DNA of 64,000 nucleotides from Zhongshania sp. (GTDB taxonomy: Bacteria > Pseudomonadota > Gammaproteobacteria > Pseudomonadales > Spongiibacteraceae): positions 1-64,000 of the forward strand of contig JAGPVP010000005.1 in the NCBI GenBank assembly GCA_018066965.1. Reading direction: 5' to 3'. This document shows positions 3-8,879 of the stretch, in pieces. Position 1 is the stretch's first letter. Every line of letters begins with the position of its first letter. The translations under genes and the position numbers were made by a program. The notes beneath the pieces were generated by a model. The model saw only the letters and a program-made list of their open reading frames with translations. It ran no database searches and was not told the DNA's origin.

Positions 3-425
3 TCACACTTAATAATGCCACGTCTATCACTCCTCAATCCCCCGCAGTCGTCCTGCGGGCAAGTGTTACACGTGGGTCAAAATTCGATGCAAATATGGGG
101 GCTTAATGGGTCAGTATTGGATGCAAATCAACAGTTTGGCCTATTAGACGGCGGCTTAGCGACATTAAGCACTCTAGGATTGGACATTGTGCAAAACATT
201 CTAGGTGGCGGCGGTCTAAGCGAAATTCCATTACTGGGTGGTGATATTTCGGCTTTCCTCACCCCAGAGGGGCTTATTTCTGGCGCTTCAGGGCTTGCGA
301 GCTTTCGGCTACCAATAGCTATACCAGTAGTGGGCCCAGAACCGCTCAAACTTTACGCTCCCGTGGTATTAGCTATATTAGAAACCCAAGGGCTTCCTGT
401 TGGCGGCATTCCCCTACCGTTTTGA
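3..425 (+). CDS. Unrecognised protein, probably the C-terminal part of a longer gene
   Basis: I do not recognise this protein. The frame is open to the left edge of the window. The first ATG is at 15, but no ribosome binding site is visible before it, so the real start is probably outside. The visible 136 or more residues are rich in Gly, Leu, Ile and Pro, with few charged residues. Repeated GG and GGG turns alternate with hydrophobic runs, and the protein ends in GGIPLPF. This could be a secreted or outer-surface low-complexity tail, but no family can be named. It is followed by a clear terminator at 510-556, which supports a real gene ending at 425. Confidence 0.45.
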   Translation, partial: SHLIMPRLSLLNPPQSSCGQVLHVGQNSMQIWGLNGSVLDANQQFGLLDGGLATLSTLGLDIVQNILGGGGLSEIPLLGGDISAFLTPEGLISGASGLASFRLPIAIPVVGPEPLKLYAPVVLAILETQGLPVGGIPLPF

Positions 426-894: not shown

Positions 895-1938
895 ATGGGC
901 GCAGAATCCGGCGCGAGGCCTCGCACAAGTAAAAAAACCGGTTTTGTTTACGTTAAACCAGCTAAACGCAAACCATCCCAGTACGAGGAAATTACTCTTC
1001 ACACCCAGTGGGACCCTCGCAACTTTGCTGTGGCTGGCTGGTTTAACTTAGACAAAAATGGTCAACCGCCATGGCGTGAAGATGCCACGCTACTAAAGGC
1101 CACTGATTGGTGGGAATACCGTGATCCAAACGCAGAGTGGTTCCGCCCTTTTGTAAAACGTCAAGCAGACATTGGTCGTTCAATTGAGCAGGCTATCGCC
1201 GGTGCAAAGCGCGCTAACACCTGCGCTGCTTTTGATGAGTCATGGACTGAATTCCTACAAACTCATTACGCCGCCTACCGCTTTGCAGAATACGGTCTCT
1301 TCCTGATTTTGTGTCAGGCCCAGCGTGAAGCGGGTTCAGATGTTGTCGCACAGCCGATGATATTCCAAAGCGTCGAGAAAGATCGCCACGCGCAAGATAT
1401 CACCCTGTATTGCATGGAGCTGGAATCACAAATTGAAGGCTTCAGCGATGCACGTGCAAAAGATACGTGGATGAACGCGCCAGAGTGGCAGGGCTTACGT
1501 CGAGTAACGGAGTATTTATTAGCTTGCCGCGATTGGGGTGAAATTTACCTTGTGGTGAATTGCCTACTCGAACCCCTAGTGTCAGCGCTAATTTGCCGCG
1601 AACTAATATTGCGCAATGCTGCTCGCCATGGCGATGTCATTACGTCGGTTATTGCCCAGGCCGCTGAGTCCTGCCGCGAGAACAATGCAGCAAGTAATAC
1701 CGCGTTGGTAGAAATGCTACTAAAACAAGCGCCTGAGCATAATCTAGCCGTTATTAATAGTTGGTTCGATAAGTGGCTACCACTGGTAGAGCAGGCCGCA
1801 GAAGACATTACACCTCTGTTTAGCACGCTGGCACTCTGTAAGGTTGATGGCAAAGACGCACTGACTAATGTCAAAGCGGAGTTTAAAGCATACATGGCGG
1901 ACTTGGGCCTAGCGTCAAACGTAGAGATCACAGCATGA
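895..1938 (+). CDS. Soluble diiron monooxygenase, beta (small hydroxylase) subunit
   Basis: This 347-residue protein is the structural beta subunit of a soluble diiron monooxygenase (SDIMO) hydroxylase. It belongs to the family of MmoY, AmoA of Rhodococcus alkene monooxygenase and EtnA. The family-typical tyrosine/RDP stretch (DWWEYRDPN, about residues 71-79) is present. A decayed diiron-like helix (EKDRH, about 161-165) is also visible, as usual in the non-catalytic subunit. A strong AAGGAG sits six bases before ATG 895. The stop overlaps the start of the coupling-protein gene by four bases. It is first in the order beta, coupling, alpha, reductase. That order, and the lack of a gamma-subunit gene, match the group 4 alkene monooxygenases rather than methane or phenol enzymes. 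The substrate cannot be read from sequence. Confidence 0.9.
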   Translation: MGAESGARPRTSKKTGFVYVKPAKRKPSQYEEITLHTQWDPRNFAVAGWFNLDKNGQPPWREDATLLKATDWWEYRDPNAEWFRPFVKRQADIGRSIEQAIAGAKRANTCAAFDESWTEFLQTHYAAYRFAEYGLFLILCQAQREAGSDVVAQPMIFQSVEKDRHAQDITLYCMELESQIEGFSDARAKDTWMNAPEWQGLRRVTEYLLACRDWGEIYLVVNCLLEPLVSALICRELILRNAARHGDVITSVIAQAAESCRENNAASNTALVEMLLKQAPEHNLAVINSWFDKWLPLVEQAAEDITPLFSTLALCKVDGKDALTNVKAEFKAYMADLGLASNVEITA

Positions 1939-2225
1939 GCACAATTAAAGCAAACCATACCGTATCTGCAAAACTTATGGGTGGCGAAGAGTCGGGAATC
2001 ATTTGTGACTTAATGGAAGAGCTGTTTGACCATGTCGACGTTATCGACAGCGGCGCCTATGTCTCAATTGAAACTCAGGAAGAAGAGCTGGTGTTCGAAA
2101 TGGCAGAAATTGCCGAGGTCATGGGCCATTCCTATTCGGTATCTAATTTCCTCGCCATTTTGGCCACCTACAAAGGCTTTATTGAAGTTAATGACGACAA
2201 CGTCACTATCCGCAATAACGGCTAA
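1935..2225 (+). CDS. Monooxygenase coupling/effector protein (MmoB/DmpM family)
   Basis: This 96-residue protein is the cofactor-free regulatory component of the SDIMO. Proteins of this family bind the hydroxylase next to the diiron site and tune electron transfer and oxygen activation. The length is typical of the family (about 90-140 residues). The body follows the MmoB/DmpM pattern: an acidic helix near the start, a central strand-rich part around the EEELVFEM segment, and a final strand pair. Its ATG overlaps the beta-subunit stop (ATGA at 1935-1938), which indicates translational coupling. The alpha gene begins 22 bases downstream after a GGAG site. Confidence 0.9.
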   Translation: MSTIKANHTVSAKLMGGEESGIICDLMEELFDHVDVIDSGAYVSIETQEEELVFEMAEIAEVMGHSYSVSNFLAILATYKGFIEVNDDNVTIRNNG

Positions 2226-2247
2226 ATAACCGCACAGGAGCATTCCA

Positions 2248-3759
2248 ATGAAAATGAGCGAAGCCTACGACCGCGTTAAGGCCATCGACTGGGAACCTAG
2301 CTACATAAGCCCAGAAGACAAAACCGTAGAAACCACCAAGTTTCATATTCATGACACCAAACCAAATGACCCGTTTAAAACCTTCGTTCGCGAATACTGC
2401 GAGCAAGAACAAGAGAAGGACGATCGTCACTACGCCCTGTTAGAAGCCTCTGCTCGCTTAAATACTGGCGAGCCAGATGGCCGCTGGATGGAAGGCATGA
2501 AATTTGGCCTGTCTAACTTAGTGGGCGTTGAATACGCTGCCGCACGCGCCATGGGCCGCATGGCAAGAACCGTTGCACCTGTAGAATTGCGTCAAGGTTA
2601 TATGATGCAAATGCTGGACGAAATGCGGCATTCCAATTTAGAAATGAACGTCATTCGCCATCACATGCGCTCATGGAAAGATCCTGTTGGTTTTGATGTT
2701 GCGGCCAAGGCCGGCGCAAGCAGCGTAGGTAGCGGCATCTTCCGCTCAATGGTTGAGGATCTAATCACCAGCGACCCAGTTGAAACCTCTATTGGTCTGC
2801 AAGTATTTGTAGAAACGGCCTATACCAACCTATTCTTTGTTGGCCTGTCGTCCCATGCCTCTGCGCACGGCGACGATATGCTTGCCTCTACACTGTTAAC
2901 AATCCAGTCTGACGAAGCCCGTCACATGGCCAATGGCTGGTCTACCCTGTCCTCTCTTTTACAAGATGACCGTAATCTGCCGCTGATTCAAAAGGCGATG
3001 GACAAGTGGTCATGGCGTATACACTGCAGCTTTGGCTTAGGCAATATGCTATTCGGCGACTACTTTGTGACTAAACGCACCGAGTCTGCCAAAGAAATGA
3101 CTATGCGCTGGGTGTTCGACGACTTCTACGGCGGCTTCTATCAAAAGCTAGAGAAATTTGGCATTAAGCCACCACCACACCTTGATGAAATGATCAGTGA
3201 CCTGGACTGGATGTCCCACTCCGCGGCCATCTATATCTTCGGTGCATGGCCCACATTCTTCCACCGCTACGACGGTCTAAAAGACGCTGACTTTGAGTGG
3301 TTCGAGAAAAAATACCCAGGTTTCTACGAGCATTTTGGCGGTTTCTGGGAAGCATATGGCAAGTGTAAAGACCCAGAGGAGGGACGCATCATTCTAAAAG
3401 AAATGGGTGGTCTGCCCAACTTCTGCCAGGTCTGCCAGCGGCCGACGATTTTCCCGCGCCCCGACATCAGTCAACAGCGTGCCATTAAGCTCAAAGATGA
3501 AACCTTTATTTTCTGCTCTGACGGCTGCCAGGAAATCTTCTTAGAAGAGCCTCATCACTACGTAGGCTATAAGAATTTTTACGACCTTTACGAAGGTAAA
3601 GAGCTGTCGGAAATAATCCAAGAACTTGGCTTTGTCCGTGAAGATGGTAAGACACTAATGGCGCAGCCCGAACTCGATCCCAAGCGGCTATGGACACTCG
3701 ACGATGTTCGTAAGGCTAATTATATCGTTGAGCGGCCCAAGCCACCGGCATACCGATAA
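2248..3759 (+). CDS. Soluble diiron monooxygenase, alpha (catalytic hydroxylase) subunit
   Basis: This 503-residue protein is the oxygen-activating subunit of the SDIMO. Both EXXH motifs are intact: DEMRH (E125, H128) and DEARH (E223, H226). The other two expected iron ligands sit at E95 (in GVEYAAA) and E189 (in FVETAYT). T193 matches the active-site Thr conserved in sMMO. The C-terminal part has two cysteine pairs (C393/C396 and C423/C427) in a YHS-like segment. The size is close to the group 4 epoxygenase alpha subunits (about 500 residues) and shorter than propane monooxygenase alpha. A CAGGAG site precedes the ATG. The family oxidises alkenes, alkanes or aromatic rings, and the nearby epoxide hydrolase argues for an epoxide product here. 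Confidence 0.95.
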   Translation: MKMSEAYDRVKAIDWEPSYISPEDKTVETTKFHIHDTKPNDPFKTFVREYCEQEQEKDDRHYALLEASARLNTGEPDGRWMEGMKFGLSNLVGVEYAAARAMGRMARTVAPVELRQGYMMQMLDEMRHSNLEMNVIRHHMRSWKDPVGFDVAAKAGASSVGSGIFRSMVEDLITSDPVETSIGLQVFVETAYTNLFFVGLSSHASAHGDDMLASTLLTIQSDEARHMANGWSTLSSLLQDDRNLPLIQKAMDKWSWRIHCSFGLGNMLFGDYFVTKRTESAKEMTMRWVFDDFYGGFYQKLEKFGIKPPPHLDEMISDLDWMSHSAAIYIFGAWPTFFHRYDGLKDADFEWFEKKYPGFYEHFGGFWEAYGKCKDPEEGRIILKEMGGLPNFCQVCQRPTIFPRPDISQQRAIKLKDETFIFCSDGCQEIFLEEPHHYVGYKNFYDLYEGKELSEIIQELGFVREDGKTLMAQPELDPKRLWTLDDVRKANYIVERPKPPAYR

Positions 3760-3789
3760 GTGAGCAGGCATTAGGACGGAGATTCATTT

Positions 3790-4809
3790 GTGAGCTACAA
3801 CATTACTCTGGAACCCTTTAACGTCGAATTTGAATGCGGTGAAGACGAGACTATTCTCGAAGCCGCCTTCAAAGCCGGCTTATCGCTTCGTTACGGCTGC
3901 AAACACGGCGGCTGTGGTGGCTGTAAGCATCAACTGGCAGAGGGCGAAGTTGATTATAATGACCACGCAACGGCAATATCAGAAGAAGAGCAAGAAGCCG
4001 GTATCGCCCTGCTTTGCTGTGCCTACCCTGAAGAAGATATTGTTATCGCGCTCGACGACGACTACAAACTCGAAGACCTAACACCTGAATATCCAGTGCG
4101 TGTTTTCGACGCGGAAATCGCCGGTATTAATTTTGTCACCCACGACACCGTACACTTAACAATGCGCGGCACAGGCCCAGAAATATACGGCTTTCATCCC
4201 GGCCAATATTTAGAGATTCAAGTACCCGGCGCTAATGAGCTTTGGCGCTGTTACTCGATGGCGAACCTGCCAAATGACAACGGCAATACCGAATTAGTGG
4301 TAAAGGTAATTCCGAACGGTCAGTTCAGTGAATATCTAAAATCGGCAAGTATTGGCGATGACGTGACATTCCGTGGCCCCTACGGGCAGTTCCAGCTTTC
4401 AGAAACCAATGCGGAAATCATTCTCATCGCTGGCGGTTCAGGTATGGCGCCGGTGATGTCTATGCTACGGCAATTAGTATCTGAAAAATCAGAACGCAAA
4501 GTATCATTTTATTACGGCGCCCGTGCTGTTAAAGATTTGTACTTTGTCGACGAGATAAATGCGCTAGGTAATCAACTCGCGGATTTCAGATTTATACCGG
4601 CCTTATCTGAGCCTGCCGCGGATGACGATTGGGACGGCGAATGTGGCTTTATTACCGACGTTCTGTTCCGCAATACCGATTCTCTACGCGCGGCAGAAGG
4701 TTATCTCTGTGGGCCGCCGCCAATGATAGACGCCGCGGTAGAAGTACTTAAACAAAAAGGCATGTTCAACAGCCGCATTCGCTTCGACAAGTTTGTGCAA
4801 AACAGTTAG
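3790..4809 (+). CDS. Monooxygenase NADH reductase (2Fe-2S ferredoxin, FAD, NAD domains)
   Basis: This 339-residue iron-sulfur flavoprotein passes electrons from NAD(P)H to the hydroxylase. The N-terminal plant-type 2Fe-2S domain has C37, C42 and C45, with the fourth cysteine at C76 or C77. An FAD-binding RCYSMA motif follows, then a nucleotide-binding AGGSGMAP and the terminal CGPPPM motif typical of ferredoxin-NADP reductase folds. The start is GTG after a GGACGGAG site. It is the last gene of the operon: a strong terminator lies 48 bases after the stop. The domain order is that of MmoC, DmpP and AmoD. Confidence 0.95.
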   Translation: MSYNITLEPFNVEFECGEDETILEAAFKAGLSLRYGCKHGGCGGCKHQLAEGEVDYNDHATAISEEEQEAGIALLCCAYPEEDIVIALDDDYKLEDLTPEYPVRVFDAEIAGINFVTHDTVHLTMRGTGPEIYGFHPGQYLEIQVPGANELWRCYSMANLPNDNGNTELVVKVIPNGQFSEYLKSASIGDDVTFRGPYGQFQLSETNAEIILIAGGSGMAPVMSMLRQLVSEKSERKVSFYYGARAVKDLYFVDEINALGNQLADFRFIPALSEPAADDDWDGECGFITDVLFRNTDSLRAAEGYLCGPPPMIDAAVEVLKQKGMFNSRIRFDKFVQNS

Positions 4810-4857
4810 ACCCACCACACTCTGTAGCGTTACCTCAAGCGCTAGCAGAGCTCCTTT

Positions 4858-4884
4858 GAGGGTGGTGTTACCGCCCTCTTTTTT
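4858..4884 (+). terminator. Terminator of the monooxygenase operon
   Basis: A 9-bp stem (GAGGGTGGT at 4858-4866 with ACCGCCCTC at 4870-4878, one G-T pair) has a three-base loop and is followed by six T residues. It separates the four-gene operon from the hydrolase gene at 5003. Confidence 0.88.
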
Positions 4885-5002
4885 ATTTTACAAACCCCGC
4901 GTTCCCAGCTCCGCACCCAAACTCCGTCAAATCGATTAACTACTCGCCTTAAAAAGGTACAATGTCCCGCAAATTAAAAATGACGCAACTGAGCATTAAC
5001 CT

Positions 5003-5821
5003 ATGATCAAGCTACTAATGAGCAATGGCATGAGATTAGCCATGGATTTTGCCGGGCACACCAACCATCAGCCGGTGCTTTTCTTTCACGGCGGCGGGCA
5101 AACTCGCCATGCTTGGGGCGAGGCCCTAGACGTTCTCGCATCTAACGGCTACCTGGCTGCTACCGTAGATCTGCGGGGGCATGGCAATAGTGACTGGGCA
5201 AGTGACGGCAATTACAATCTAAGCGCCTTCGCAGACGATATCATCAACCTTTGCGGCATGTTTGATCAAAAACCCATTTTGGTTGGTGCGTCCTTAGGCG
5301 GGCTTGCTTCCCTACTTGCTATTGGTGGTACTGATATAGCAAGTGCCTTGGTATTGGTCGACATCGTTCCAAAAGTTAACCACGTTGGCACAGATCATAT
5401 TAAAGACTTTATGTCGGCCAGCCCAGATGGTTTTGCGAGCTTAGAAGACGCAGCAGATGCGATCGCCGCTTACACGCCACAGCGTAAACGCCGCAAGGAC
5501 TTAAGTGGTCTCAGCAAGAATTTGCGCCTGCGCGAAAACGGCCGTTACTACTGGCATTGGGATCCGCGTTTCCTGAACGCGGGCAACCAAATTGATCCAG
5601 AAAACACGCTTAATATAGCAACAGATAAATTATCACTGCCGGTATTGCTAGTGCGCGGAGAAAAAAGTGATGTCGTTGACGATGACGGTGTTGAGGATTT
5701 TTTACGCCGCGTGCCCCATGCTGAATACGTGCAGGTCATCGGTGCCGCACACATGATTGCCGGCGATAGCAATCAGCAGTTTAATAAAGTCGTTTTGGAT
5801 TTTCTTCACAAACACCAATAG
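5003..5821 (+). CDS. Alpha/beta hydrolase
   Basis: This 272-residue cytoplasmic alpha/beta hydrolase has an oxyanion HGGGQ near residue 30 and a nucleophile elbow GASLGG. The catalytic acid lies in the VRGEKSDVV segment, and the catalytic His is probably in GAAHMIAGD near the end. It lacks a signal peptide. The cap is short and includes a basic QRKRRKD stretch. The layout resembles the esterase/haloperoxidase-like group, but the substrate is unknown. It lies between the monooxygenase terminator and the epoxide hydrolase, on the same strand. It may therefore act on an ester or lactone made from the monooxygenase product, though this is only suggested by position. Confidence 0.8.
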   Translation: MIKLLMSNGMRLAMDFAGHTNHQPVLFFHGGGQTRHAWGEALDVLASNGYLAATVDLRGHGNSDWASDGNYNLSAFADDIINLCGMFDQKPILVGASLGGLASLLAIGGTDIASALVLVDIVPKVNHVGTDHIKDFMSASPDGFASLEDAADAIAAYTPQRKRRKDLSGLSKNLRLRENGRYYWHWDPRFLNAGNQIDPENTLNIATDKLSLPVLLVRGEKSDVVDDDGVEDFLRRVPHAEYVQVIGAAHMIAGDSNQQFNKVVLDFLHKHQ

Positions 5822-5828
5822 TCACTTT

Positions 5829-5866
5829 CGTCCAGCTCAAACCCATACTTTTGATTGAGCTGGACG
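5829..5866. other. Perfect 12-bp intergenic hairpin
   Basis: CGTCCAGCTCAA (5829-5840) pairs exactly with TTGAGCTGGACG (5855-5866) around a 14-base loop, eight bases after the hydrolase stop. No T-tract follows on either strand, so it may be a transcript 3' stabiliser or a weak terminator. Confidence 0.5.
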
Positions 5867-6036
5867 GGCCATGTTACGGCTACATTCATATAGCGAAGAG
5901 AATAAACTCTGGGAAAGATAATCGCGATCATTTAGATCAAAAACCGTATGCAAGCGAACTTTAAATTATGCTTTAATCTACGCACATGCCGCTACGCCAT
6001 AGATCTAAGTCCACAAATGCAATATGGGAATTAATA

Positions 6037-7176
6037 ATGAATCCAGCAATTACACCATTTAAGGTCGATATACCCCAAACGCAACTAGATGACCTTAAAG
6101 CAAGGCTAGCCAATACTCGCTGGCCAAACCCAGAACCCGTCGATGACTGGAGTCAGGGCGCACCACTTGGCGCCGTCCAATCGCTCTGCAAATACTGGGA
6201 GCAAAGCTACGATTGGCGTCGCTGTGAATCTGAATTAAATAAATATCCCCAGTTCACAACCGAAATTGATGGTCTTGATATCCACTTTCTGCATATCCGC
6301 TCGCCGCATGAAAATGCCATGCCCATGATCATGACCCACGGCTGGCCCGGCTCAATACTCGAGTTTATCCGCGTTATAGAGCCACTCACCAATCCGACTG
6401 CCCATGGCGGTAGTGCCGACGATGCCTTTCATCTGGTTATTCCATCATTACCCGGCTATGGTTTTTCAGGTAAACCGACCTGCACCGGTTGGGGCTTAGA
6501 GCGTATTGCCAAAGCCTGGATTAGCCTTATGGAAAGACTCGAATATTCCAAATATGTCGCACAGGGCGGCGACTGGGGATCAGGTGTCACCAGCGCAATA
6601 GGTTATATACACCCAGCAGAATGTTTAGCAATACACGTCAATATGGCACTCGCACAACCCTCTGAAGAAGATATGGCGTCACTCACCGAACGTGACCAAA
6701 AGGCCTTGGCAGATATCAAGTACTATTTCGACTCAGACTCCGGCTACGCCATCATTCAAAAAACGCGTCCACAATCGCTTGGTTACGGCTTGGCAGATTC
6801 TCCCGCGGCACAAGCTGCGTGGATATATGAAAAATTTCATCGCTGGACCGATAATAACGGACGCCCAGAAGATGCCCTTACCATCGACCAGATGCTAGAC
6901 GACATCAGTATCTACTGGCTCAGCAATAGCGGTGCGTCATCTGCTCGCCTATATTGGGAAAGCTTCGACTCTATCTTTGCCAAGCCAATGACCATTCCCT
7001 GCGGTATCTCTATTTTCCCCAAAGAGTTATTCAGACCCGCGCGCAAATGGGCCGAGTGCTTATATCAAAACCTGATTCACTGGAATGAACTAGATAAGGG
7101 CGGGCATTTCGCGGCCTTTGAACAACCGGAGCTATTTGTAAACGAAGTCCGAAGCTGTTTTTCAAAAATTCGTTAG
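6037..7176 (+). CDS. Epoxide hydrolase (EHN-domain, microsomal type)
   Basis: This 379-residue protein opens epoxides to vicinal diols. It begins with the epoxide hydrolase N-terminal domain (MNPAITPFKV, then DLKARLANTRWP). The alpha/beta hydrolase core follows: HGWPGS oxyanion motif at 101-106, nucleophile D179 in GGDWGS, and catalytic His H357 in GGHFAAFEQPE. I chose ATG 6037 over the in-frame ATG 5986 because the family starts with this PFKV strand; the 17 extra residues would be unrelated. It lies 1.2 kb downstream of a monooxygenase expected to form epoxides. No coenzyme M transferase gene of the actinobacterial alkene pathway is seen in the window. It is convergent with the esterase at 7233. 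Confidence 0.92.
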   Translation: MNPAITPFKVDIPQTQLDDLKARLANTRWPNPEPVDDWSQGAPLGAVQSLCKYWEQSYDWRRCESELNKYPQFTTEIDGLDIHFLHIRSPHENAMPMIMTHGWPGSILEFIRVIEPLTNPTAHGGSADDAFHLVIPSLPGYGFSGKPTCTGWGLERIAKAWISLMERLEYSKYVAQGGDWGSGVTSAIGYIHPAECLAIHVNMALAQPSEEDMASLTERDQKALADIKYYFDSDSGYAIIQKTRPQSLGYGLADSPAAQAAWIYEKFHRWTDNNGRPEDALTIDQMLDDISIYWLSNSGASSARLYWESFDSIFAKPMTIPCGISIFPKELFRPARKWAECLYQNLIHWNELDKGGHFAAFEQPELFVNEVRSCFSKIR

Positions 7177-7232: not shown

Positions 7233-8144
7233 CTACCAGTGCTTAGCGACAAATTCGCAGAACTTATCAAGCGCGATTTTGCTGTCCGGCAGCATCGACA
7301 ATATTTGCATATCGTGACAATGGCCTGGCCAAATATCGATCGCCACTGATACCCCAGCATCGCGAGCTTTTTCCGCGCCCACCACAGCCACGTCACGTAA
7401 TAGCTCGGTGCTGCTGGCGGTGAAATACATCGGTGGATAGCCCTCAAATGAATCCAACAAAGGTGATACTGCTGGGTCGCTAGCGTCATAGCCAGCCAAG
7501 TACAAACTGCGAAAAAACAAGAAGGAGCTAAGCCGAAACATCGGATCTCGCCCTTCGTTTTCATAAAGCGAAGCGCCAGATAAAGTCCAATCACCCGCCG
7601 GAGAGAACAAACTCGCCGACGTTGGCATAGGGAGTCCGGCATGTCGAATTTTTGCCAAAATAGACAAGACCAAACCACCACCGGCAGAGTCGCCGAGTAG
7701 CGCGATATGATTGGCCGGCACGCCTTTGTCCAGCAGCATTTGATAACTTTCAAAACAATCATCAATGGCCGCGGGGTGAGGATGCTCTGGCGCTAAACGG
7801 TAGTCGGGTAATACCCCGATGGACCCGAGGTTATTACAAATCCCTGCGAGCATTGCCCTATACGTATGGGGCGAACGCAAGCAATATGCACCGCCATGAA
7901 AGAAGAGCAGGTGTTTGGCGCTCAGCTGATCACCGGCAAATTCCAAGGGTTGTAAAACGTCAGCTTGGCAATGGGATAAATCTATGCGATTAATACGGCA
8001 CAGTTGCTCTGCCTTGCCGACAGCGCGCTTATCAAGGTTCGCAAAACGTGTTCGGAGCCCCCTTAACTGCGCTAAGTTCCATATCGGTCGGCGAATTAAG
8101 GTAAGTATAAAATTCAACAGGCGGCTGCGAATACTTTGCTTCAT
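7233..8144 (-). CDS. HSL-family (family IV) alpha/beta hydrolase, esterase
   Basis: This 303-residue esterase belongs to the hormone-sensitive-lipase group. It has the HGGAY oxyanion motif and the GDSAGGG nucleophile elbow. The acidic residue is expected in the STELLRD segment and the catalytic His in WPGHCHD. The first 35 residues are basic and hydrophobic and may associate with the membrane, but no clear cleavage site is seen. An AAGGATG site precedes the ATG. A TetR gene lies 102 bases upstream on the same strand, so the two may be related. The family hydrolyses short to medium acyl esters. The real substrate is unknown. Confidence 0.85.
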   Translation of the reverse strand: MKQSIRSRLLNFILTLIRRPIWNLAQLRGLRTRFANLDKRAVGKAEQLCRINRIDLSHCQADVLQPLEFAGDQLSAKHLLFFHGGAYCLRSPHTYRAMLAGICNNLGSIGVLPDYRLAPEHPHPAAIDDCFESYQMLLDKGVPANHIALLGDSAGGGLVLSILAKIRHAGLPMPTSASLFSPAGDWTLSGASLYENEGRDPMFRLSSFLFFRSLYLAGYDASDPAVSPLLDSFEGYPPMYFTASSTELLRDVAVVGAEKARDAGVSVAIDIWPGHCHDMQILSMLPDSKIALDKFCEFVAKHW

Positions 8145-8246: not shown

Positions 8247-8879
8247 CTACGGAGTAATGTACTCAGCCACAAATGAGTTTATGGTTTTCTGCGTGGTTTT
8301 AGACGTTGCGCCGCAGAAACGCATATGCGCTATGGTATGTGCCATGCCTAAGATAGTGCGCGCGGCATCAGCTGCCTGCAGCGTTGGCTTAATGGAATTA
8401 TCTATTCGCCCTTCTAATAGCAATTTACGCAAAGCTACCGTTGTTGCGGTATAGAACTCTTTGTATAGCTCCCAAATATGGCCTTTAGTCGACCCGCTCC
8501 ACTCTAGCCAAACAGTGACGTAATTTCTGTCCGTATCTACCGCCTTCGCGAAAGAGGAAAGCATATCTTCAACACGGGTATAAACCGGAACTTCAATATC
8601 GGTGCGAACAATAACGAAGCCCTCAAGTAAAAACCGCCTAACTTCTTTTATGACCTCTGACTGCAAATCACCAATAGTCGGAAAATAATGAAACACTGTA
8701 GGGCTTGCAACACCGGCAAGTTTAGCAATATCTGCATGGGTCGCCTTCTCAATACCCTGCTCAGCAAACACCTCCACTGCACACATTAAAATTTGCTGCC
8801 GACGGGCCTCTGGAGACATCCGCTTTGCCCGGGTCTTTACTGATGTACCGCCCACGTCTGCATTTTTTGCCTTGGCCAC
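8247..8879 (-). CDS. TetR family transcriptional regulator
   Basis: This 210-residue regulator has a basic N-terminal arm, then the TetR helix-turn-helix at about residues 25-72 (RRQQILMCAVEVFAEQG, HADIAKLAGV, TVFHYFPTIGDL). A unique ligand-binding half follows. The start is GTG with a good AGAGGTAAG site. It precedes the HSL-type esterase on the same strand and is the nearest regulator gene to the monooxygenase cluster, although in the opposite direction. Its ligand cannot be told from the sequence. Confidence 0.88.
   Translation of the reverse strand: MAKAKNADVGGTSVKTRAKRMSPEARRQQILMCAVEVFAEQGIEKATHADIAKLAGVASPTVFHYFPTIGDLQSEVIKEVRRFLLEGFVIVRTDIEVPVYTRVEDMLSSFAKAVDTDRNYVTVWLEWSGSTKGHIWELYKEFYTATTVALRKLLLEGRIDNSIKPTLQAADAARTILGMAHTIAHMRFCGATSKTTQKTINSFVAEYITP

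Follow-up and report, generated by a model that had tools for sequence, protein, structure and literature searches.

Soluble diiron monooxygenases (SDIMOs) are sorted into groups 1–6 plus 'like' groups, as set out in PMC11057499. These groups serve to guess the substrates of hydrocarbon and contaminant degraders. The operon described here lies near the start of a 64,000-nucleotide stretch of DNA from Zhongshania sp. (the window; positions 1–64,000 of contig JAGPVP010000005.1, assembly GCA_018066965.1, 3.66 Mb and 84% complete). Judged from the trees below, it shares its gene order, but not its ancestry, with group 4. A clade of this kind risks being misread as an alkene monooxygenase, as happened in a preliminary description of this DNA.

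Group 4 is represented by the operons of Nocardioides JS614 and M. chubuense NBB4, which we take to be EtnABCD, and presumably also includes AmoABCD of R. rhodochrous B-276. Like the window operon, EtnABCD has the order beta, coupling, alpha, reductase, no gamma gene, and Glu at the position of methane monooxygenase C151. Unlike it, EtnABCD has an alpha subunit that is only 37% identical, falls into a separate clade in both the alpha and beta trees and has other pocket residues, and the window operon has no neighbouring gene for an epoxyalkane:coenzyme M transferase (EaCoMT). Group 6 (SmoABCD/PrmABCD of Mycobacterium and Rhodococcus) similarly has four components and this Glu, and its alpha subunit is the closest among the named references (39% identity), but its genes run alpha, beta, coupling, reductase. 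Soluble methane monooxygenase (group 3) has ligands like those of the window alpha subunit and supplies its closest solved structure (best PDB match by sequence, E = 3.9e-72), yet the two are only 30% identical. Soluble methane monooxygenase also has a gamma subunit and another gene order.

The isobutylene system of Mycolicibacterium ELW1, IbcABCDEF with the epoxide hydrolase IbcK, shares with the window the idea of an SDIMO plus an epoxide hydrolase. It differs in being a six-gene group 2 SDIMO, with IbcK inside one predicted operon and reported as active (PMC13188929). The amo operon of Halieaceae PE-TB08W, compared by description only, likewise belongs to a marine gammaproteobacterium and is of the amoABCD type, but is described as a new branch near the terrestrial alkene monooxygenases, with EaCoMT and coenzyme M genes (PMC6440738). 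An SDIMO outside the known groups was noted earlier in Mycolicibacterium ANDR5 and MAG19a as similar to one of NBB4 (PMC9213486). As the best places on two NBB4 plasmids reach only 39.1% and 37.7% identity with the window alpha subunit, that SDIMO would differ from the window lineage. No description of the lineage was found in the literature, in a search that left supplements and most subscription journals outside.

The operon consists of four genes:
895..1938, + strand, SDIMO beta subunit of the diiron hydroxylase, 347 aa (Pfam PF02332, Phenol_Hydrox, E = 9.4e-51)
1935..2225, + strand, coupling/effector protein of the MmoB/DmpM type, 96 aa (Pfam PF02406, MmoB_DmpM, E = 3.5e-14)
2248..3759, + strand, SDIMO alpha subunit with the diiron site, 503 aa (Pfam PF02332, Phenol_Hydrox, E = 6.9e-42)
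3790..4809, + strand, NADH reductase with 2Fe-2S ferredoxin, FAD and NAD domains, 339 aa, GTG start (Pfam Fer2, FAD_binding_6, NAD_binding_1)

The beta and coupling genes share 4 bases, and no open reading frame (ORF) of at least 80 aa lies between the four genes. The beta, coupling and reductase genes thus adjoin alpha, and the ORF list and Pfam matches confirm the operon, its coordinates, its order without gamma (shared with the JS614 and NBB4 operons) and, through its closest named relatives in Zhongshania (95% alpha identity), the gammaproteobacterial host, all as first described. The order beta, coupling, alpha is kept in the window and in all 21 named loci found by a wider scan. A reductase is present in 18 of these 21, directly after alpha in 17 and 2.6 kb further on in L051; none was found in L053 and L054, and L041 is cut off by a contig end. 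The G+C content of the SDIMO genes (49.2%) resembles that of the window (49.7%) and gives no sign of recent foreign origin. Promoter-like sites in the window are at chance level (13 against 12.0), and NCBIfam has no family for the window alpha subunit or for any of the 10 other alpha subunits tried. In the Z. aliphaticivorans isolate BC9_2A the beta gene (L034:8647-9687) carries one in-frame stop; the L035 and L049 copies are uninterrupted.

Phylogenetic position and diiron site

The alpha tree contained 56 rows. With midpoint rooting, groups 1 and 2 fall on the far side of the root; the incomplete rows L041, L120 and L127 were omitted, as were two duplicates. References were operons from plasmid records together with L014, a soluble methane monooxygenase nearly identical to a solved one. 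Their group labels are assumed from gene order, annotation and the literature, and each reference group forms a single clade. The window alpha subunit falls into a clade of 21 rows (~61–95% identical to it; support 100/99), labelled in the records as Zhongshania, Spongiibacter, Aestuariicella, Solimonas, Nevskia, Binatia, Myxococcota and uncultured gammaproteobacteria. This clade stands outside the branch (100/99) that unites groups 3, 4, 5 and 6. The beta tree (48 rows, eight rows without a recoverable beta being omitted) contains the same separate clade with support 98/95.

Approximately unbiased (AU) tests agree with this placement, although they are several tests on one data set and the margin for groups 4 and 5 is not enormous. 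Holding the clade with group 4 was rejected at p = 0.018, and at p = 0.0033 in a second alpha tree with a second NBB4 operon (same gene order, 57% to EtnC) as a third group 4 row; this tree lacks the long L091 row and contains L128. Unions with group 3 (p = 7e-5) and with group 6 plus its relatives (p = 0.0015) were also rejected, and that with group 5 marginally (p = 0.047). EtnC itself is 47–49% identical to group 6 records, against ~37–38% to the window alpha subunit. The phenol and toluene monooxygenases of groups 1 and 2 are 25–30% identical to the window alpha subunit, which does not cluster with them. The preliminary description had proposed group 4 and an alpha phylogeny to settle the matter: the sequence indeed falls outside the phenol, toluene and methane groups, but it does not cluster with group 4 either, and that assignment is dropped.

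The six iron ligands given earlier (E95, E125, H128, E189, E223 and H226; four Glu and two His) hold up. They are invariant in six of six aligned orthologues and in all 21 clade rows, and align with columns E114, E144, H147, E209, E243 and H246 of methane monooxygenase. Nineteen alpha columns set the clade apart: they are conserved in at least 20 of its 21 rows and absent from the 35 others, and they include F187 and F196, which flank ligand E189. In methane monooxygenase, positions C151, L216 and F188 line the pocket. The first is Glu in 21/21 clade rows; the second is Phe (F196) in 21/21 clade rows and in none of the 35 others; the third is Met (17) or Leu (4). These replacements point to an altered pocket, and a substrate therefore cannot be read from group membership. 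In a different SDIMO alpha subunit (L116, G768:C8:373284-374762), encoded 15 kb from a member of the clade, Ala replaces the bridging Glu (methane monooxygenase E209).

The window SDIMO apparently represents a distinct and undescribed lineage, sister to groups 3–6. We lean slightly towards regarding it as a seventh major SDIMO group, found according to record labels in Gammaproteobacteria, Binatia and Myxococcota and having its own pocket (F196 for Leu, Met/Leu at F188). At least in the subclade linked to TonB receptors (see below), its substrate would be imported through the outer membrane, and so be a bigger molecule than the gases and simple aromatic compounds of the known groups.

The terminator and the epoxide hydrolase block

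Downstream of the reductase lie the following features:
4858..4878, + strand, intrinsic terminator with a 9-pair stem followed by T6 (terminator scan; conserved in relatives)
5003..5821, + strand, alpha/beta hydrolase behind the terminator, 272 aa (Pfam Abhydrolase_1, E = 1.6e-19)
6037..7176, + strand, EHN-type epoxide hydrolase (Pfam PF06441, E = 5.1e-42; PDB 5f4z, E = 1.2e-121)
7233..8144, - strand, hormone-sensitive-lipase-type esterase, part of the EHN block (Pfam Abhydrolase_3, E = 1.4e-45; adjoins EHN in G006, G013, G009 and G010)
8247..8879, - strand, TetR-family regulator beside the EHN–lipase pair (Pfam TetR_N, E = 7.3e-11)

The preliminary description overlooked both the strong terminator and the hydrolase gene 5003-5821. 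A comparable stem and T-run, with bases changed yet still pairing, follows the reductase in five of seven loci (window, L034, L035, L036, L049), and such an element is present in all five Spongiibacteraceae loci examined, window included. It lies between the SDIMO and EHN in the window and four relatives, although read-through or joint regulation may still link them. As the whole scan found 8 terminators against 9.7 in shuffles, the case rests on the strength, place and conservation of this one, which probably closes the SDIMO transcription unit. The product of 5003-5821 shows a weak likeness to enol-lactonases (NCBIfam protocat_pcaD, 68 bits, cut-off 256), and its homologue follows the SDIMO only in the window, L034 and L049 (3/22 loci).

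The identity of the epoxide hydrolase is upheld by its Pfam and PDB matches: an EHN N-terminal domain precedes an alpha/beta hydrolase, and the D of GGD and the H of GGH align with those of solved epoxide hydrolases. In these enzymes the GGD Asp is the nucleophile and the GGH His is catalytic. Two details of the first account require correction. The start may be 6037 instead of 5986, five of 11 homologous ORFs being exactly 379 aa, the length from 6037; and the gene does not directly follow the operon, as 5003-5821 intervenes.

EHN instead goes with the lipase and TetR genes. An EHN–lipase–TetR block occurs in G009, and an EHN–lipase pair in G010, both genomes lacking an SDIMO of the clade. 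In G006 EHN lies 11.5 kb downstream of the SDIMO and the window order is kept from EHN onward; the genes that precede it there include, in the syntenic G013 locus, polysaccharide and Kdo-transferase genes. In G013 the EHN block opens a different contig, and in G017 separate contigs carry the SDIMO and the EHNs. From this conserved order with and without the SDIMO, the cassette appears to sit upstream of a separate chromosomal block, so that EHN looks like a neighbour from that block and not a shown member of the operon. Homologues of the TetR gene (cluster 4) are present in 12 of the 22 SDIMO loci of the clade, window included; EHN lies inside the fetched locus in the window and 2 of the 21 named loci. 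The conserved terminator, the EHN blocks without an SDIMO and the small number of loci with EHN leave the proposal that EHN performs the next step of the pathway unsupported.

Gene neighbourhoods and candidate pathways

Since the contig begins at window base 1, the upstream partners of the SDIMO are cut off. What is left is one partial gene:
15..425, + strand, end of a Gly-rich, putatively secreted protein, part of the upstream TonB-receptor module (homologues immediately precede the SDIMO in G006, G013 and G017)

This protein is truncated by the contig edge and is 191–210 aa long in relatives. A TonB-dependent receptor gene lies near the operon in Spongiibacteraceae and Cellvibrionaceae loci, L049 included, and the A. 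hydrocarbonica and Cellvibrionaceae metagenome-assembled genome (MAG) loci have an aldehyde dehydrogenase and an acyl-CoA ligase in addition. A ketosteroid-isomerase-like protein is encoded nearby in five of six loci of these two families (L034–L037 and L045, but not L049). It has a Tat-like signal as read by eye and scores 81 bits against TIGR02096, under the cut-off of 97; its structure prediction (mean pLDDT, a per-residue confidence score, of 34.7) was not used. In L051 a short-chain dehydrogenase/reductase (SDR) and a Baeyer-Villiger-like gene lie between alpha and the reductase, with a second SDR homologue behind the reductase. The Baeyer-Villiger-like product resembles pentalenolactone D synthase (273 bits, cut-off 1100) and has a homologue in L053. 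A census of 124 neighbouring proteins gave TetR regulators (11), luciferase-like proteins (7), SDRs (5), AMP ligases (3), molybdenum aldehyde-oxidase-type proteins (3) and aldehyde dehydrogenases (2). It covered loci outside Zhongshania, excluding the window, L034, L035, L049 and ORFs of <170 aa or >7.5 kb away; 16 of 139 ORFs were dropped, either as outliers of their locus or to limit the size of the set, and one was added.

The reading that we hold to be probable is that of a self-contained four-gene SDIMO operon of a distinct lineage, serving the catabolism of hydrophobic hydrocarbons more likely by C-H hydroxylation than by alkene epoxidation, with EHN in a separate block. Gene content, iron ligands, phylogeny, the terminator-like element and synteny are observed; activity, substrate class and pathway we infer as follows. 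By homology, electrons from NADH would pass through the FAD and 2Fe-2S centres of the reductase to an (alpha-beta)2 hydroxylase that the coupling protein gates, and the hydroxylase would insert one O atom from O2 into the hydrocarbon; transcription probably stops at the terminator behind the reductase. A hydrophobic, non-gaseous hydrocarbon taken up through the outer membrane would begin its catabolism at the SDIMO, C-H hydroxylation giving an alcohol, then an aldehyde or ketone, an acid and a CoA ester. The TonB receptor, aldehyde dehydrogenase, CoA ligase and SDR neighbours in relatives suit the hydroxylation of a hydrophobic hydrocarbon at least as well as they suit alkene epoxidation. Together with the oil enrichment of Zhongshania, they favour a hydroxylase acting on a compound imported across the outer membrane; in one study Zhongshania operational taxonomic units were enriched by crude oil (PMC8478444).

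Several observations weigh against this reading. All 22 carrier genomes (5 from the genus and 17 from elsewhere) contain EHN, compared with 7 of 229 genomes in a class sample, two of those being carriers. This had looked decisive for EHN as a dedicated partner of the SDIMO, a candidate rejected when significance was lost within lineages: EHN occurs in 5/5 carriers against 8/13 non-carriers in the genus (Fisher p = 0.25) and in 9/9 against 23/27 in the G482 family (p = 0.55), small numbers in both cases. Co-occurrence therefore looks mainly like a lineage trait. The proximity of EHN to the SDIMO is nonetheless above chance, and EHN may play some role. EHN lies within 10 kb in 3/22 genomes against ~0.24 expected (Poisson p = 0.002), and within 25 kb in 6/22 against ~0.59 (p = 3e-5, or 4e-4 counting two Zhongshania genomes once); the 25 kb cut-off was chosen after the distances were known, so the 10 kb figure is preferred, and partial or weak EHN matches are omitted from both counts. 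Many MAGs are too fragmented for this linkage test, and catabolic genes clump in general. EHN is 2.3 kb from alpha in the window; in Cellvibrionaceae L045 (2.7 kb) and Solimonas L047 (9.5 kb) the linked EHN is the only one found in the genome. Beyond G006 the distance is 19.7 kb in Aestuariicella (again the only EHN found) and 21.5 kb in G019. The terminator was not seen in L037 and L045 among the seven loci examined, and L045 has a close EHN. The Glu at the C151 position is common to the clade and the group 4 and group 6 references, the rejection of group 5 as sister is only marginal, and the trees lack the Halieaceae PE-TB08W and B-276 AmoC sequences. Finally, the neighbourhood varies between lineages and supports no single pathway throughout.

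The presence of EHN in every carrier, its closeness to alpha in the window, L045 and L047, the gene order of JS614 and NBB4 and the ELW1 precedent (PMC13188929) would all suit an alkene monooxygenase whose epoxide the adjacent EHN would hydrolyse to a diol, as in isobutylene degradation. We regard this as unlikely in view of the terminator, the intervening gene, the EHN blocks in G009 and G010 and the failure of co-occurrence within lineages. Furthermore, the linked EHNs are of different types (62% identical to that of the window in L045, 42% in L047, 38% in G019), and those of L045 and L047 are encoded on the other strand from the SDIMO. An ethene or propene monooxygenase of the coenzyme M type would have the same gene order, and a marine member of the Halieaceae that degrades propene is reported to have an amoABCD-type operon with EaCoMT (PMC6440738), yet we give this reading hardly any credence. 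No match to the JS614 transferase (EtnE) at E 1e-10 was found in the five genus carriers, the host (G000) among them, its absence there being uncertain at 84% completeness but in keeping with the lack of this enzyme noted earlier; G018, alone of 18 genus genomes, has a 32% match, and it has no SDIMO. A TonB receptor upstream in relatives would also be unexpected for a gaseous substrate.

Hydroxylation at a secondary or cyclic C-H is a minor but real possibility. The alcohol would become a ketone through an SDR and then an ester or lactone through a Baeyer-Villiger enzyme, to be opened by an esterase or lactonase, a last step that the window hydrolases 5003-5821 and 7233-8144 would fit. The L051 genes with the L053 homologue, the place of SDRs among the commonest neighbours (5/124) and the enol-lactonase likeness of 5003-5821 speak for it. 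However, the Baeyer-Villiger-like cluster occurs in only 2/22 loci, which are not near the window in the tree, none was seen beside the window operon, and the lactonase likeness is far below the family cut-off. That the oxygenase is biosynthetic or detoxifying seems improbable: the ketosteroid-isomerase-like protein beside the subclade operons would be consistent with such a role, but the census consists mostly of regulators and families usual in catabolism, and Z. aliphaticivorans is reportedly a degrader of aliphatic hydrocarbons.

Distribution of the clade

In the genus, 5 of 18 genomes carry an SDIMO of the clade (G000, G006, G013, G017 and G019; 88–95% identity). Four of 390 genomes in the order sample matched at E 1e-70, all from this genus, and the class sample of 369 added one genome (G482) with a 68% copy and three with only more distant SDIMOs. 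The 21 named loci (61–95%) are labelled as Zhongshania, Spongiibacter thalassae, Aestuariicella hydrocarbonica, a Cellvibrionaceae MAG, Nevskia, Solimonas soli, Binatia, Myxococcota, 'Deltaproteobacteria' and other gammaproteobacterial MAGs. The distribution is thus patchy. No member was found on viral contigs, and phage records gave two records only, with 29% matches. According to their labels the hosts include the named strains Zhongshania marina ZX-21, Spongiibacter thalassae KMU-166, Aestuariicella hydrocarbonica JCM 30134 and Solimonas soli DSM 21787, so that the substrate of the clade can be sought directly.

Some further observations concern the genomes and loci searched. One genome (G482/G762) has four different SDIMOs, 68, 42, 40 and 37% identical to the window alpha subunit. 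Three MAG contigs labelled Klebsiella pneumoniae (L040, L043, L050) group with unclassified gammaproteobacteria in the alpha tree, and their labels look wrong. Group 6 is confined to Mycobacterium and Rhodococcus according to a figure legend in PMC11057499; in the alpha tree L115, L117, L118, L119, L124 and L013, from other hosts, form a sister lineage to it, in which alpha is followed by beta, a small gene and the reductase (seen in L025 and L027). A membrane-protein-like family of 259–279 aa (cluster 14) is encoded near the SDIMO in L035, L036 and L045; its L035 and L036 members have no Pfam match, and that of L036 no NCBIfam match. In Spongiibacter thalassae a type I-F Cas3-Cas2 gene (L036:17693-20647) lies downstream of the SDIMO.

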